Shown: in pieces, positions 5,483-9,571 of the stretch
How positions within the stretch are numbered: position 1 is the first letter of the stretch
Layout: the number at the start of each line of letters is the position of its first letter
NCBI GenBank assembly: GCA_022572885.1
Contig: JACZVC010000004.1
Coordinates: 1 to 64,000, forward strand
DNA length: 64,000 nucleotides
Direction of reading: 5' to 3'
Origin: Pseudomonadota bacterium
Lineage (GTDB): Bacteria > Pseudomonadota > Gammaproteobacteria > Steroidobacterales > MnTg04
Notes under the pieces: model-generated
What the model was told of the DNA's origin: nothing
Database searches by the model: none
Seen by the model: the letters and a program-made list of their open reading frames with translations, nothing else
Translations under genes and position numbers: made by a program

Positions 5483-6664
5483 CTACTCGCCGAGTATGCG
5501 CAAGGTAACCCGGCGATTTTCTGCGCGGCCCGCGGCCGTCGCATTGCTGGCGATCGGGTTGCTTTCGCCATAACCCCTGGCGCTCAGCATGCCGGCGTCG
5601 ACCCCATGGCTGACGAGGTAGTTCATGACAGACTGGGCCCGGCGCCCGGACAGGTTCTGGTTATACGCGGCCGATCCGGAACTGTCGGTGTAACCGGCAA
5701 CTTCGACTCGCAGATCGCTGTTCTTCAGTAGCGTGGCCGCGGCGTCATCGAGACGCGCCGACGAATCGGCGGTCAGGTCAGCGGAATTGGTCTCGAAATT
5801 AACCCCCCGCAGGTGGATTTCCTCCTGCAATTCGCAACCGCGATTGTCGACCCGCGTGCCAGCCGGCGTGCCCGGGCAGTTGTCCATATAGTCGGCCACG
5901 CCATCGCCATCGCTGTCGAGAGGGCATCCGCGCCCATCGACCGGTGCACCGGACGGCGTATCCGGGCAGCGGTCAGCGCCATCGACCACCCCATCGCCGT
6001 CGGCGTCATATTCGCATCCGTTCGCCTTGACGGCTCTGCCGCGTGGCGTGCCCGGGCATCGATCAGCGCCATCGGCCACGCCATCGCCATCCGCATCGCT
6101 GGGTGCGCTCGGCGCGGGCTCTGCGTGGGGAGAGCCAAAAGGAATCTGCAGACCGATCATCGCAACCAAATCGTTGGTCGAGCCGTTCGGGGCGAAGAAC
6201 TTTCTCAGTCTCAGTTCAGGGCGCAACGAGACGGTGCCGCCGCGGCCCAGATCGATCAGCAAGCCCATGCCGATCGAACCTGTTTTTTCACGAAAATTAA
6301 GGGCCGGATCGGTACTGTCGATATTCATGGCGCCCAGCCCCAGCAAAAAATAGGGCGACCAGCTTGCGTCACGGAACCAGACTCGCAGGAAGTTCAGCTC
6401 CAGCTCGCGGATATCCTGATCCGCGCCCCCGCTGCCGGGGTGATTGACACTGGTGTACATCAGTTCCAGATTCACTTTGTCGGTCAGGGCGCGGCCAAAG
6501 CCAACGGCAAAACCGGACTCGTCTTCCCGCGGTTGGCCGTCGGCTACCCATACGCCGATGGCTGCGGGTGTCAGATACCACTGCCCGGCCTTTTCCTCGG
6601 CCAATGTCACGTTTGCCCAGATCAGGCCGATGCACAAAAACGCAAGAATTCTGGAAAGTTTCAT
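5483..6664 (-). CDS. OmpA-family outer-membrane protein with thrombospondin type 3 repeats
   Basis: The 393-residue protein has a signal peptide (MKLSRILAFLCIGLIWANVTLA), then a probable eight-stranded barrel up to about residue 180. Three calcium-binding TSP3 repeats follow (DADGDGVADGADRCP-type, each with acidic loops and paired cysteines), and then a C-terminal OmpA peptidoglycan-binding domain. The last contains VEVAGYTDSSGS and the SGRRAQSVMNYL helix. It likely tethers the outer membrane to the wall. A GGGGAG ribosome site precedes the ATG. A terminator-like hairpin follows the gene. Confidence 0.92.
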   Translation of the reverse strand: MKLSRILAFLCIGLIWANVTLAEEKAGQWYLTPAAIGVWVADGQPREDESGFAVGFGRALTDKVNLELMYTSVNHPGSGGADQDIRELELNFLRVWFRDASWSPYFLLGLGAMNIDSTDPALNFREKTGSIGMGLLIDLGRGGTVSLRPELRLRKFFAPNGSTNDLVAMIGLQIPFGSPHAEPAPSAPSDADGDGVADGADRCPGTPRGRAVKANGCEYDADGDGVVDGADRCPDTPSGAPVDGRGCPLDSDGDGVADYMDNCPGTPAGTRVDNRGCELQEEIHLRGVNFETNSADLTADSSARLDDAAATLLKNSDLRVEVAGYTDSSGSAAYNQNLSGRRAQSVMNYLVSHGVDAGMLSARGYGESNPIASNATAAGRAENRRVTLRILGE

Positions 6665-6780: not shown

Positions 6781-8688
6781 TCAGGGCGAGAGAATTTCGG
6801 CCCAGTTATTGATCAGGCTGTCACGGCGCCTCAGCAAGGCGCGAATCTGGTCGCGGTTGATATAAGCGCCGAGTTCGGCGCTCAACTGCTCGGCATCCAG
6901 CGCGGCAAGCCGGTCGGCCATTTCCCGGGGCATCTTCAGCTCGCGCTCGCGCACGTACGGCGGTTTGTTGCGATAGGTTCGGAAACTGCGCGACTGGTCT
7001 ATCAGTTTGAGCATCCAGTCGCCTTGCGTGTAAGTGACATTCTGTTGCGTGCGATCATCGTTATAGATCAGCGTGTCCCAGACATACATCAGGTCGTGTT
7101 GTGGTTGCAGCGGACACCAGCCATTGGCCTTGATCTTCTCGCGGTTTTTTTTCAGCAGGCTGATCAATCCATCCATCCAGAAAATCAGCGCGCCATCTTC
7201 GCCGTTTATGTTGCGCTCGACCGCAACCGGGACCATATCGAGACCCAGCATGCGGTCCAGCCGGTAAGCGGCGATTTCATACTGCCAGCGGTCTGAGACG
7301 TTCAGCATGCGGTTTTTATTGGGTCCGCGGCCGCGGCGAATTTCGGTCGACTCGGTCTTGAATATCGCGTCCAGTTGAACGCCGTCTTTTTCCAGGGTCA
7401 GGCGAGTCGGCAGGGTGACGCCAACGGGGATTGCCTCGCTGCCGATTACGCTCGCGGTACGCAAGAATTCCGCCAGCTCGTCATCCGACATATTGTTGGG
7501 CCGGGCGCCCACTTTTCTTGTTTGCACGTACGGGGATTCGAGGCCTTCCCGATCGAGGTAGCGGACCCGCAGACCATGCTCGTCGATAATCAGTGCGGCG
7601 GCGCTGCCGCCGTAGTGCGAAGTCAGCATGCCGGTATCCAGCAGGACGATTCTGCCGTCATCCCGGCTTTCAACTTTTCGGCTCGTTGTTGGCGTGTGTC
7701 CGAGTACCGCGCGTTGCACCTGCTGAGTCTCCAGCGCTCGCCTGGTGTTGCTGCTTTCGCTGAGTGGATAGCACAGCGCGCTGCCGCGATACCAGAGCGG
7801 GCCGTCGGCGTTGAGTGCCACGCCTTCATTGGCAGCCAACAGGCTGCTGGCGGCGAGACGAAACTCTTCCCTAACATCTTCGTCGGCTGCCAGGATCGTC
7901 GCAATGGCGATTACATCCGGGACGTTTTGTTTCGAAGAGACAAAACCTGCTTTGTTCAATGCATGCCATGCTTCCGCGTATAGTCGAATTTCCGCCAACA
8001 TGGTTTGGTTCAGTTCGCCTAACGGCATTTCGCCGATCACCGGGGCCAGCCCGCCGTGCACGAAAAGCGTATCGTTGACGACGAGTACTACGGATTGTTC
8101 AAGCAGCCAGTTGCCGTACTTGCCCTGCGGCGAGAAAGCCTCAAGACGGGCAAAATATCCGGCCGGGAATTGTCGATCGAACTCCGCCCTTGTTTGATCG
8201 CTGGACAGGGTCGCCTGATCACGCTGGCGCTGATAATTGGCGTATGCGGCCTGGCGTTGTGCCACTGTTTCCTCGCCGGCAAATTCGGCAATCTCCTGTT
8301 CAGACACGTATCGCCAGTCACCGATCATGTTCATTACTTCGTGATTGCCCAGTGCCAGCAATACTTTGCCGCCGGCTTTGCCAGCCTGTGTCTGCAATGA
8401 CATCAGCAGATCCAATGCCGCGCGCGATGCCGGACCGCGATCCACGATATCGCCAAGGCTGACCAGATAACTGTCGCCGCCGGACCAGTTGCCCTCGTCG
8501 TCGATGATGTCGGTTTGCCTCAAGATGCTGGCCATGTCCTCGTAGGCACCCGAAACATCGGCAATGACGACCACGCGGGATACACCGGAATACCTCGCTT
8601 CTGGATTATCCTCGGCGATTGCCTGGCCAACGGCCAGCACCATGATCGCTAGATGGAGGAACAGATTGAGCAATGGTCTGCGGGTCAT
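6781..8688 (-). CDS. Exported PPP-type phosphatase fused to a Fam20/HipA-like kinase domain
   Basis: The start at 8688 gives a clear signal peptide (MTRRPLLNLFLHLAIMVLAV) and 635 residues. The first half is a PPP-family phosphoesterase of the Shewanella-like type: GDIVDRG (79-85), GNHE (114-117), VHGG (210-213) and GHTP (330-333). The first metal motif reads ADVSG instead of GDxHG, so one metal-ligand histidine is replaced by serine. The second half (about 415-635) resembles Fam20/HipA-type kinases: a candidate ATP lysine in AIFKT (K444), AAYRLDRMLGLDMVP, NDDRTQQN (543-550) and LIDQSRSF (562-569). The kinase assignment rests on motif resemblance. Substrates are unknown; the signal peptide places both domains outside the cytoplasm. 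Confidence 0.8.
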   Translation of the reverse strand: MTRRPLLNLFLHLAIMVLAVGQAIAEDNPEARYSGVSRVVVIADVSGAYEDMASILRQTDIIDDEGNWSGGDSYLVSLGDIVDRGPASRAALDLLMSLQTQAGKAGGKVLLALGNHEVMNMIGDWRYVSEQEIAEFAGEETVAQRQAAYANYQRQRDQATLSSDQTRAEFDRQFPAGYFARLEAFSPQGKYGNWLLEQSVVLVVNDTLFVHGGLAPVIGEMPLGELNQTMLAEIRLYAEAWHALNKAGFVSSKQNVPDVIAIATILAADEDVREEFRLAASSLLAANEGVALNADGPLWYRGSALCYPLSESSNTRRALETQQVQRAVLGHTPTTSRKVESRDDGRIVLLDTGMLTSHYGGSAAALIIDEHGLRVRYLDREGLESPYVQTRKVGARPNNMSDDELAEFLRTASVIGSEAIPVGVTLPTRLTLEKDGVQLDAIFKTESTEIRRGRGPNKNRMLNVSDRWQYEIAAYRLDRMLGLDMVPVAVERNINGEDGALIFWMDGLISLLKKNREKIKANGWCPLQPQHDLMYVWDTLIYNDDRTQQNVTYTQGDWMLKLIDQSRSFRTYRNKPPYVRERELKMPREMADRLAALDAEQLSAELGAYINRDQIRALLRRRDSLINNWAEILSP

Positions 8689-8824
8689 AAAATTCAACCG
8701 TCGGTAAGCCGTTATTGATAACGTCACTGAGTAAGGCTAGGCGAAGCGAAGCGTTTTTGCCATAGTCTGGACGGCTGCGGGCGGATTTGGAGCGCAGGTG
8801 AGCTGATATGAGGATGGATTCACT

Positions 8825-9571
8825 ATGAACCGAGTAATCGTTTTGCTGCTTTTAGGTCTTGCGGCCTGCGTTTCGCTGGCGGAACCGGTCAATGTTAAGG
8901 TCCGCGTCCTCGCTAACGACGCCAAGTTCGTCGGCACCAGCATGGGCGGCGTCAGGGTTGTCATTAGCGACATCGAAAATGGCGTCGTGCTGGCCACTGG
9001 GATCACCCGGGGCGAGACCGGGGACACCGGGCTGATCATGCACCAGCCACGGGCGAGAGGCGCGTCCATCATCACCGACGGAGCCGCGGTTTTTAGCGCC
9101 AGTATCGATATCAGCCGGCCGACCAGGGTTCTGGTCGAGGCCAGCGGCCCGCTGGGGTTCCCGAATTCCATGGCGCAGATCAGCGCAACCCACTGGCTGA
9201 TCCCCGGCCATGACGTCGCCGATGGGTGGACCATGACTTTGCCGGGTTTTGTCCTCAAACTGATCGATATCCCGCGCAAGGCCGGCCGGGGTGACGATAT
9301 CCCGGTCCATGTGAAGCTGGTCATGATGTGCGGTTGTCCGACCGAGCCAGGTGGGCTGTGGGATTCCGATCAGTACACGATCAAGGGCCAGATATGGAGC
9401 GGAGACACGGTGGTTTCTGAAGCCGACCTGGAGTACACGGGGAAAACCAGCCATTATCGCGCTGCCATAACGGCGACAGAGCCTGGCGTGCTGGAACTGC
9501 TGGTTTATGCTGTGGATACCAGCACCGGGAACACGGCCGTTGTGAAAGCGCCGCTGCTGGTTGATGAATAA
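8825..9571 (+). CDS. Secreted protein of unknown function (possible lipoprotein)
   Basis: The 248-residue product begins with a hydrophobic export signal (MNRVIVLLLLGLAACVSLAEP). LAAC could be a lipobox with C15 modified, or cleavage could follow SLA. The mature part is beta-rich, with a CGCP cluster near residue 164 and an all-beta C-terminal segment. I do not recognise the family. A GAGGATGG sequence precedes the ATG. A 308-codon open frame on the other strand is taken as a shadow because it has no signal, ribosome site or domain. The next gene starts inside its last codons. Confidence 0.7.
   Translation: MNRVIVLLLLGLAACVSLAEPVNVKVRVLANDAKFVGTSMGGVRVVISDIENGVVLATGITRGETGDTGLIMHQPRARGASIITDGAAVFSASIDISRPTRVLVEASGPLGFPNSMAQISATHWLIPGHDVADGWTMTLPGFVLKLIDIPRKAGRGDDIPVHVKLVMMCGCPTEPGGLWDSDQYTIKGQIWSGDTVVSEADLEYTGKTSHYRAAITATEPGVLELLVYAVDTSTGNTAVVKAPLLVDE

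Follow-up and report, generated by a model that had tools for sequence, protein, structure and literature searches.

We describe an exported bacterial protein that carries a Shewanella-like phosphatase domain and a Fam20-like kinase-fold domain in one chain, and whose relatives with an intact kinase commonly adjoin a gene for a TLC-family ATP/ADP transporter. Our preferred reading (probability roughly 0.6) is that this phosphatase-kinase forms part of a bacterial module for extracytoplasmic phosphorylation that consists of a kinase, a phosphatase and an ATP supply. We give about even odds to the fuller claim that this would be a previously undescribed form of reversible extracytoplasmic phosphorylation, in which a Fam20-like kinase and a Shelph phosphatase would operate with an ATP-exporting TLC transporter and a CotH-like protein would take over from the kinase in some lineages. 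A Fam20-like kinase that is genetically tied to an ATP/ADP translocase offers a concrete and testable route to extracytoplasmic phosphorylation. If the reading holds, supplying ATP to the periplasm would be at least part of what TLC transporters do in free-living bacteria, and relatives of the kinases of the animal secretory pathway, fused to their own eraser, would be placed in bacteria. Kangiella, Lysobacter, Parahaliea and Aliikangiella are culturable carriers, so the proposal is testable now.

The periplasm is taught as an ATP-free compartment, and to our knowledge hardly any regulated phosphorylation is known beyond the cytoplasm of bacteria. AceK, HPrK/P and bacterial Pnkp are familiar cases of single polypeptides with opposing phosphate chemistry, although these bifunctional kinase/phosphatases are cytoplasmic and are either unrelated in fold or built around a shared active site. 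The protein described here shows a weak match to the phosphatase part of Pnkp. Its gene lies in the window, by which we mean the whole stretch of 64,000 nucleotides that was analyzed, and its host is a marine bacterium.

The gene runs on the minus strand from an ATG at position 8688 to a stop at 6781 (alternative start, GTG at 8727), and its features are collected in the table below. A signal peptide, a PPP phosphoesterase and a kinase-like domain had been read from the sequence in a preliminary description, and Pfam, phmmer, profile and fold comparisons as well as the homologues all agree with this composition. The AlphaFold2 model of the full-length two-domain protein has a pLDDT of 91.7 and a pTM of 0.88. 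The same two-domain order, for which a search in other genomes had been suggested in that description, recurs in about 140 full-length homologues in the window's order, where 236 of 396 sampled genomes have some match, and the arrangement is therefore no chance reading. A hydrophobic N-terminal segment is present in 98/100 fused homologues and in 37/39 stand-alone intact kinases. The same-strand gene downstream encodes an OmpA/TSP3 outer-membrane protein, and an OmpA-like neighbor is seen again at seven intact-kinase loci; it is a possible, weakly indicated candidate for a partner or substrate of the phosphatase-kinase. Divergent from the kinase gene, positions 8825-9571 (+) encode an exported protein of 248 residues with no Pfam match.

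Features of the phosphatase-kinase gene and its downstream neighbor in the window
Feature	Position	Strand	Evidence
Exported phosphatase-kinase gene, 635 aa	6781..8688	-	ORF, two-domain AlphaFold model, homologues
Signal peptide, residues 1-25, MTRRPLLNLFLHLAIMVLAVGQAIA, predicted cleavage after AIA	8614..8688	-	sequence; model helix 4-23
Shewanella-like (Shelph/SLP) PPP phosphatase domain, residues 31-390	7519..8598	-	Pfam Metallophos, phmmer, Foldseek
Ser46 (TCG) replacing the metal-binding His of GDxHG	8551..8553	-	codon, homologue comparison
Fam20-like kinase-fold domain, residues 396-635	6784..7503	-	profile vs FAM20A/B/C; Foldseek
Lys444 (AIFKT), at the position of the Fam20C ATP lysine (QALFKP)	7357..7359	-	HMMER alignment; invariant in intact group
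Asp466 (SDRWQYE), at the position of the acidic Mn2+ ligand, Glu of Fam20C ERHNAE	7291..7293	-	HMMER alignment; invariant in A2
Glu471 (YEIAAYRLDR), aligned with AEIAAFHLDR of Fam20	7276..7278	-	alignment
Asp545 (NDDR), at the position of the Fam20 catalytic Asp (NMDRHHYE)	7054..7056	-	alignment
Asp564 (LIDQSRSF), at the position of the Fam20 metal-binding Asp (LDNGRGF)	6997..6999	-	alignment
OmpA/TSP3 outer-membrane protein, downstream same-strand gene	5483..6664	-	Pfam

In the mechanism that we propose, the phosphatase-kinase would be exported by way of its signal peptide, which is consistent across the family. Judging from the alignment, the Fam20-like domain would bind ATP-metal through Lys444, Asp466 and Asp564, and Asp545 would drive the phosphorylation of an envelope or secreted target. 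The N-terminal Shelph domain would strip phosphate in the family at large, and the window member, with His46 lost, would act mainly as a writer. A TLC-type exchanger would move cytoplasmic ATP out across the inner membrane and carry the ADP of the kinase back. The association of TLC and kinase genes is an observation; we infer the direction of transport, because of the cell's gradients, and its substrate, as we do the activity, ATP flow and phosphorylation substrate of the module as a whole. Such a system would work like the Fam20 kinases of the animal secretory pathway, to which it would add an eraser on the same polypeptide and a neighboring carrier for ATP. The export signal, both folds, the active-site residues, Ser46 and the gene associations on which this proposal draws come from sequence comparison and structure prediction.

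Residues 396-635 of the window protein gave no match when searched alone against Pfam, and the relation to Fam20 came to light only with a profile built from 13 homologues whose motifs are intact. Against the PDB, this profile found FAM20A (E = 7.5e-9), FAM20B (1.1e-6) and FAM20C (4.5e-6), with an overall span to 9.5e-4. The AlphaFold2 model of the kinase half (pLDDT 88) had Fam20B, Fam20C and Fam20A as its top Foldseek matches, the best of which was 5xoo, a Hydra Fam20B with bound sugar (E = 9.5e-9, TMq 0.71). Type II PI4K (PI4KII) was the next fold after the Fam20 structures. AIFKT, NDDRTQQN and LIDQSRSF, which had been singled out as candidate kinase motifs, fall on the Fam20 lysine, catalytic aspartate and metal-binding aspartate. 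The kinase assignment had been made to depend on fold and active site, and both agree with it: the Fam20 fold ranks first and the key Lys and Asp residues are aligned. The second half is almost certainly a real kinase-fold domain. The position of Asp466 is Glu in Fam20C, Asp in FAM20B and Gln in the pseudokinase FAM20A, whose inactivity has been put down to a Glu-to-Gln change at the Mn ligand (PMC7948968); in our reading, the Gln aligned with Asp466 would be that very residue. We predict with good confidence that the domain is active as a kinase in the window species.

The foremost alternative concerns what such a kinase would act on. The target may not be a protein at all, and the kinase could phosphorylate an envelope glycan, a lipid or a sugar, as Fam20B does xylose, with the phosphatase acting on the same phosphate. 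This is suggested by the sugar bound in the best structural match, by PI4KII as the next fold and by the sugar-modification genes that Pfam identifies close by in the window (UDP-GlcNAc 2-epimerase and DegT aminotransferase). We nevertheless think it rather unlikely, since the Shelph phosphatases characterized to date are tyrosine phosphatases (PMC5658161) and no glycan gene recurs beside family loci beyond local synteny. When neighbors were clustered for a substrate gene shared across lineages, only local synteny was found besides the TLC genes and the CotH-like family.

The kinase half is Fam20-like and is not a member of the Fam20 family, because it has one cysteine in residues 396-635, short of the Fam20 disulfide set, and scores under the Pfam cut-off: the window protein has no match to Pfam Fam20C, and the best family member reaches E = 3.2e-4, under the gathering score. 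With animal FAM20A, FAM20B and FAM20C it shares the fold, the order of lysine, acidic metal ligand, DR aspartate and LD aspartate, and export, and both groups include pseudokinases; it differs in being bacterial and fused to a phosphatase. The FAM20 cluster has been treated as metazoan-specific in one survey (PMC9758233). HipA and VLK, named beside Fam20 in the preliminary description, did not hold up. The HipA_2 profile gave at best E = 2.4e-5 among family members, under its cut-off, and did not match the window protein. The setting is also unlike that of HipA, as the protein is exported and its neighbors encode the OmpA/TSP3 protein and an exported hypothetical protein, with no HipB antitoxin partner. 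VLK was absent among the 50 fold matches listed. The best named bacterial matches are HipA_2 and the SCO1664 family (TIGR03843), both far under their curated cut-offs; TIGR03843 was matched by 13/13 A2 members (best E = 4e-15), and the window protein scored 22.2 bits against a trusted cut-off of 172.4 bits.

A scan of genome contigs with the kinase profile yielded 80 named loci, located in Halieaceae, Kangiellaceae, Lysobacter, other Gammaproteobacteria, Acidobacteriota/Aminicenantes, one Myxococcota genome and one Chloroflexi record. For each protein, we listed the residues at the catalytic positions. Across the family, the phosphatase motifs hardly vary, and the kinase half occurs in two states, degenerate or with Lys, Glu/Asp, Asp and Asp all intact. 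Most of the family has an intact phosphatase, and in about half of it the kinase is degenerate. The state of the kinase shifts at least about seven times on the phosphatase tree, and three of these shifts are forced by well-supported branches. The kinase is intact in the window genus, where the kinase half is 91-93% identical, compared with about 76% for the phosphatase half. Both halves are under purifying selection in pairs that include the window protein (dN/dS of 0.05-0.12 in the kinase half and 0.17-0.19 in the phosphatase half).

The neighboring genes differ between loci of the two kinase states. A TLC-family gene lies within 600 bp at 48/71 intact-kinase loci as opposed to 3/45 degenerate-kinase loci. 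Its placement varies between same-strand downstream, same-strand upstream and convergent, and this is therefore not one inherited arrangement. Pfam confirms most of the sampled adjacent TLC proteins, with PF03219 above its cut-off; the transporters of loci L113, L136 and L140 match only MFS or He_PIG in Pfam, but fall inside the TLC tree. In the Aminicenantes operons, the TLC gene stands between the phosphatase and the kinases (PF03219 E = 1.8e-16 and 3.1e-17). At another locus (L150:1-3150), a TLC-HEAT-cyclic-nucleotide-binding fusion is encoded just upstream of a phosphatase-kinase gene that has an N-terminal extension of about 420 residues. No TLC gene adjoins the phosphatase-kinase gene of the window itself. 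The window genome does contain two TLC genes, compared with none in 14 control genomes. These genes, C31 (on a different contig, number 31) and C5, score 29.4 and 31.8 bits against the PF03219 gathering score of 21. The C31 transporter nests within the clade of kinase-adjacent transporters (SH-aLRT 97). Its close orthologues, non-adjacent cases included, were found in 12/14 sampled intact-kinase genomes and 4/26 degenerate-kinase genomes, where the division between close and distant was our own choice (roughly 37% identity across most of the gene, or across a gene that is truncated).

These counts of TLC genes, like those of CotH-like genes given below, are of loci and not of independent events, which limits their phylogenetic independence; when kinase state and TLC adjacency were tested for correlated evolution, there were too few independent pairs and the result was not significant. 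The association consequently rests on tight adjacency across different arrangements and phyla. From these gene neighborhoods, we consider it somewhat probable that the TLC transporter supplies ATP to the exported kinase, and this would be a candidate answer to the puzzle of ATP supply raised in the preliminary description, with TLC genes adjoining the kinase in relatives and present elsewhere in the window genome. An open-access literature search found no paper tying TLC transporters to exported kinases. There is a lesser chance that the TLC neighbor is unconnected with ATP supply and serves nucleotide import or some other exchange, with the phosphatase scavenging nucleotide phosphate. Characterized TLC proteins are importers of intracellular bacteria, those of free-living bacteria (NTT/TLC) being without known function (PMC5381601), and the three degenerate-kinase loci noted above retain their adjacent TLC gene. 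Against such a role, adjacency and close orthologues are concentrated in intact-kinase genomes, and the Aminicenantes operons place the transporter between phosphatase and kinases. Many TLC/NTT translocases of the kinase-adjacent type, and C31 (L180:469-2085), add a C-terminal He_PIG Ig-like domain to the translocase. Elsewhere, a giant open frame of 4893 aa (G453:C1:3248740-3256938) contains more than 20 He_PIG repeats that resemble this Ig domain.

Kinase and phosphatase can also be uncoupled. In one Kangiellaceae genome (L140:707-6084), two fused copies flank a TLC gene, and one keeps the phosphatase and the other the kinase. The second of these copies and the Thalassotalea protein L175 have an intact kinase and an apparently degenerate phosphatase half, the call for L175 being less certain because its motif residues are misaligned. 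In Aminicenantes, two or three separate intact kinases, all exported, follow the phosphatase, which either has a gene of its own or is joined to a degenerate kinase that has Cys in place of the catalytic Asp. Operons of an exported Shelph phosphatase, a degenerate kinase, a TLC transporter and then these exported Fam20-like kinases are seen at L156:781-7599, L142:2435-7592, L160, L165 and L170. The L140 copies and the Aminicenantes genes indicate that the opposing activities have repeatedly been separated and yet held in one locus. A lipoprotein with an SdiA-regulated/phytase-like propeller is encoded inside the Aminicenantes locus (L156:4087-4950; also L155, L160, L165, L166, L167 and L170).

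The possibility that one half is a pseudoenzyme had been raised in advance, and it is true of the family, as the kinase half is degenerate in much of it; in the window protein it is probably the phosphatase that is weak (H46S). Another reading would make the second half a nucleotide-binding, pseudokinase-like sensor of ATP/ADP that controls the phosphatase and transfers no phosphate. The loss of catalytic residues from about half of the kinase halves, next to intact phosphatase motifs, fits such a sensor, and FAM20A is a precedent for ATP binding without catalysis (PMC7948968). We judge it improbable, as the better conserved half in the window genus is the kinase, which has all its catalytic residues, and the window phosphatase lacks His46, and as Aminicenantes have separate intact kinases with no phosphatase attached.

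Pfam assigns the phosphatase half to Metallophos (E = 2.3e-10), phmmer relates it to 2z72, the cold-active PTPase of Shewanella (E = 9e-25), and the full AlphaFold2 model has the PPP fold (Foldseek against 1v73, E = 2e-19). It shares with these Shelph/SLP enzymes the GDxxDRG, GNHE, HGG, WYRG and GHT motifs, all of which are present. It departs from them in its fusion to a kinase, a domain that the Shewanella and Plasmodium enzymes lack, and in the metal-1 motif GDxHG, which reads ADVSG, as had correctly been noticed: codon 46 is TCG (8553-8551) in the window and CAC in three sister species. The histidine is kept in 98/98 homologues, a count that excludes the second Kangiellaceae copy and L175, so that Ser is unique to the window among 99 sequences. 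Wholesale degeneration of the phosphatase was rejected, since of 39 positions that at least 95% of the homologues share only one deviates, namely Ser46, and dN/dS is like that in the sister species. An assembly or sequencing artefact hiding a normal bifunctional enzyme, which the isolation of Ser46 and the clustering of the change (CACGGC has become TCGGGT, with four of the six bases altered) might suggest, is doubtful, because four clustered differences exceed the usual single sequencing error and the flanking sequence keeps its reading frame and shows purifying selection. The phosphatase of the window protein is probably impaired, that is, weakened or inactive through loss of its M1 metal ligand; the loss of activity is not certain because the rest of the half is fully conserved. 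With its kinase intact and His46 lost, the window protein is thus the opposite of the degenerate-kinase lineages.

In the latter, a different exported neighbor is found. A CotH-like protein of about 350 residues, in which GNTDxS, HN and PYDFD are nearly invariant, is encoded at 32/45 degenerate-kinase loci as opposed to 0/71 intact ones (L003:3438-4508 and 31 more among L197-L236). CotH is a distant relative of Fam20C (PMC7821199), and the spore-coat kinase itself acts in sporulation and is unfused. Pfam CotH (PF08757) matched 4/19 proteins of the CotH-like family (A4) weakly and under its cut-off (best E = 1.9e-4), and the L003 member likewise falls under the cut-off. Neither a second kinase copy nor a CotH-like kinase was found in the window genome. 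The simplest reading is that an unfused, putative CotH-like kinase replaces the degenerate Fam20-like one at these loci, and such neighbors would be a further form of the uncoupling described above.
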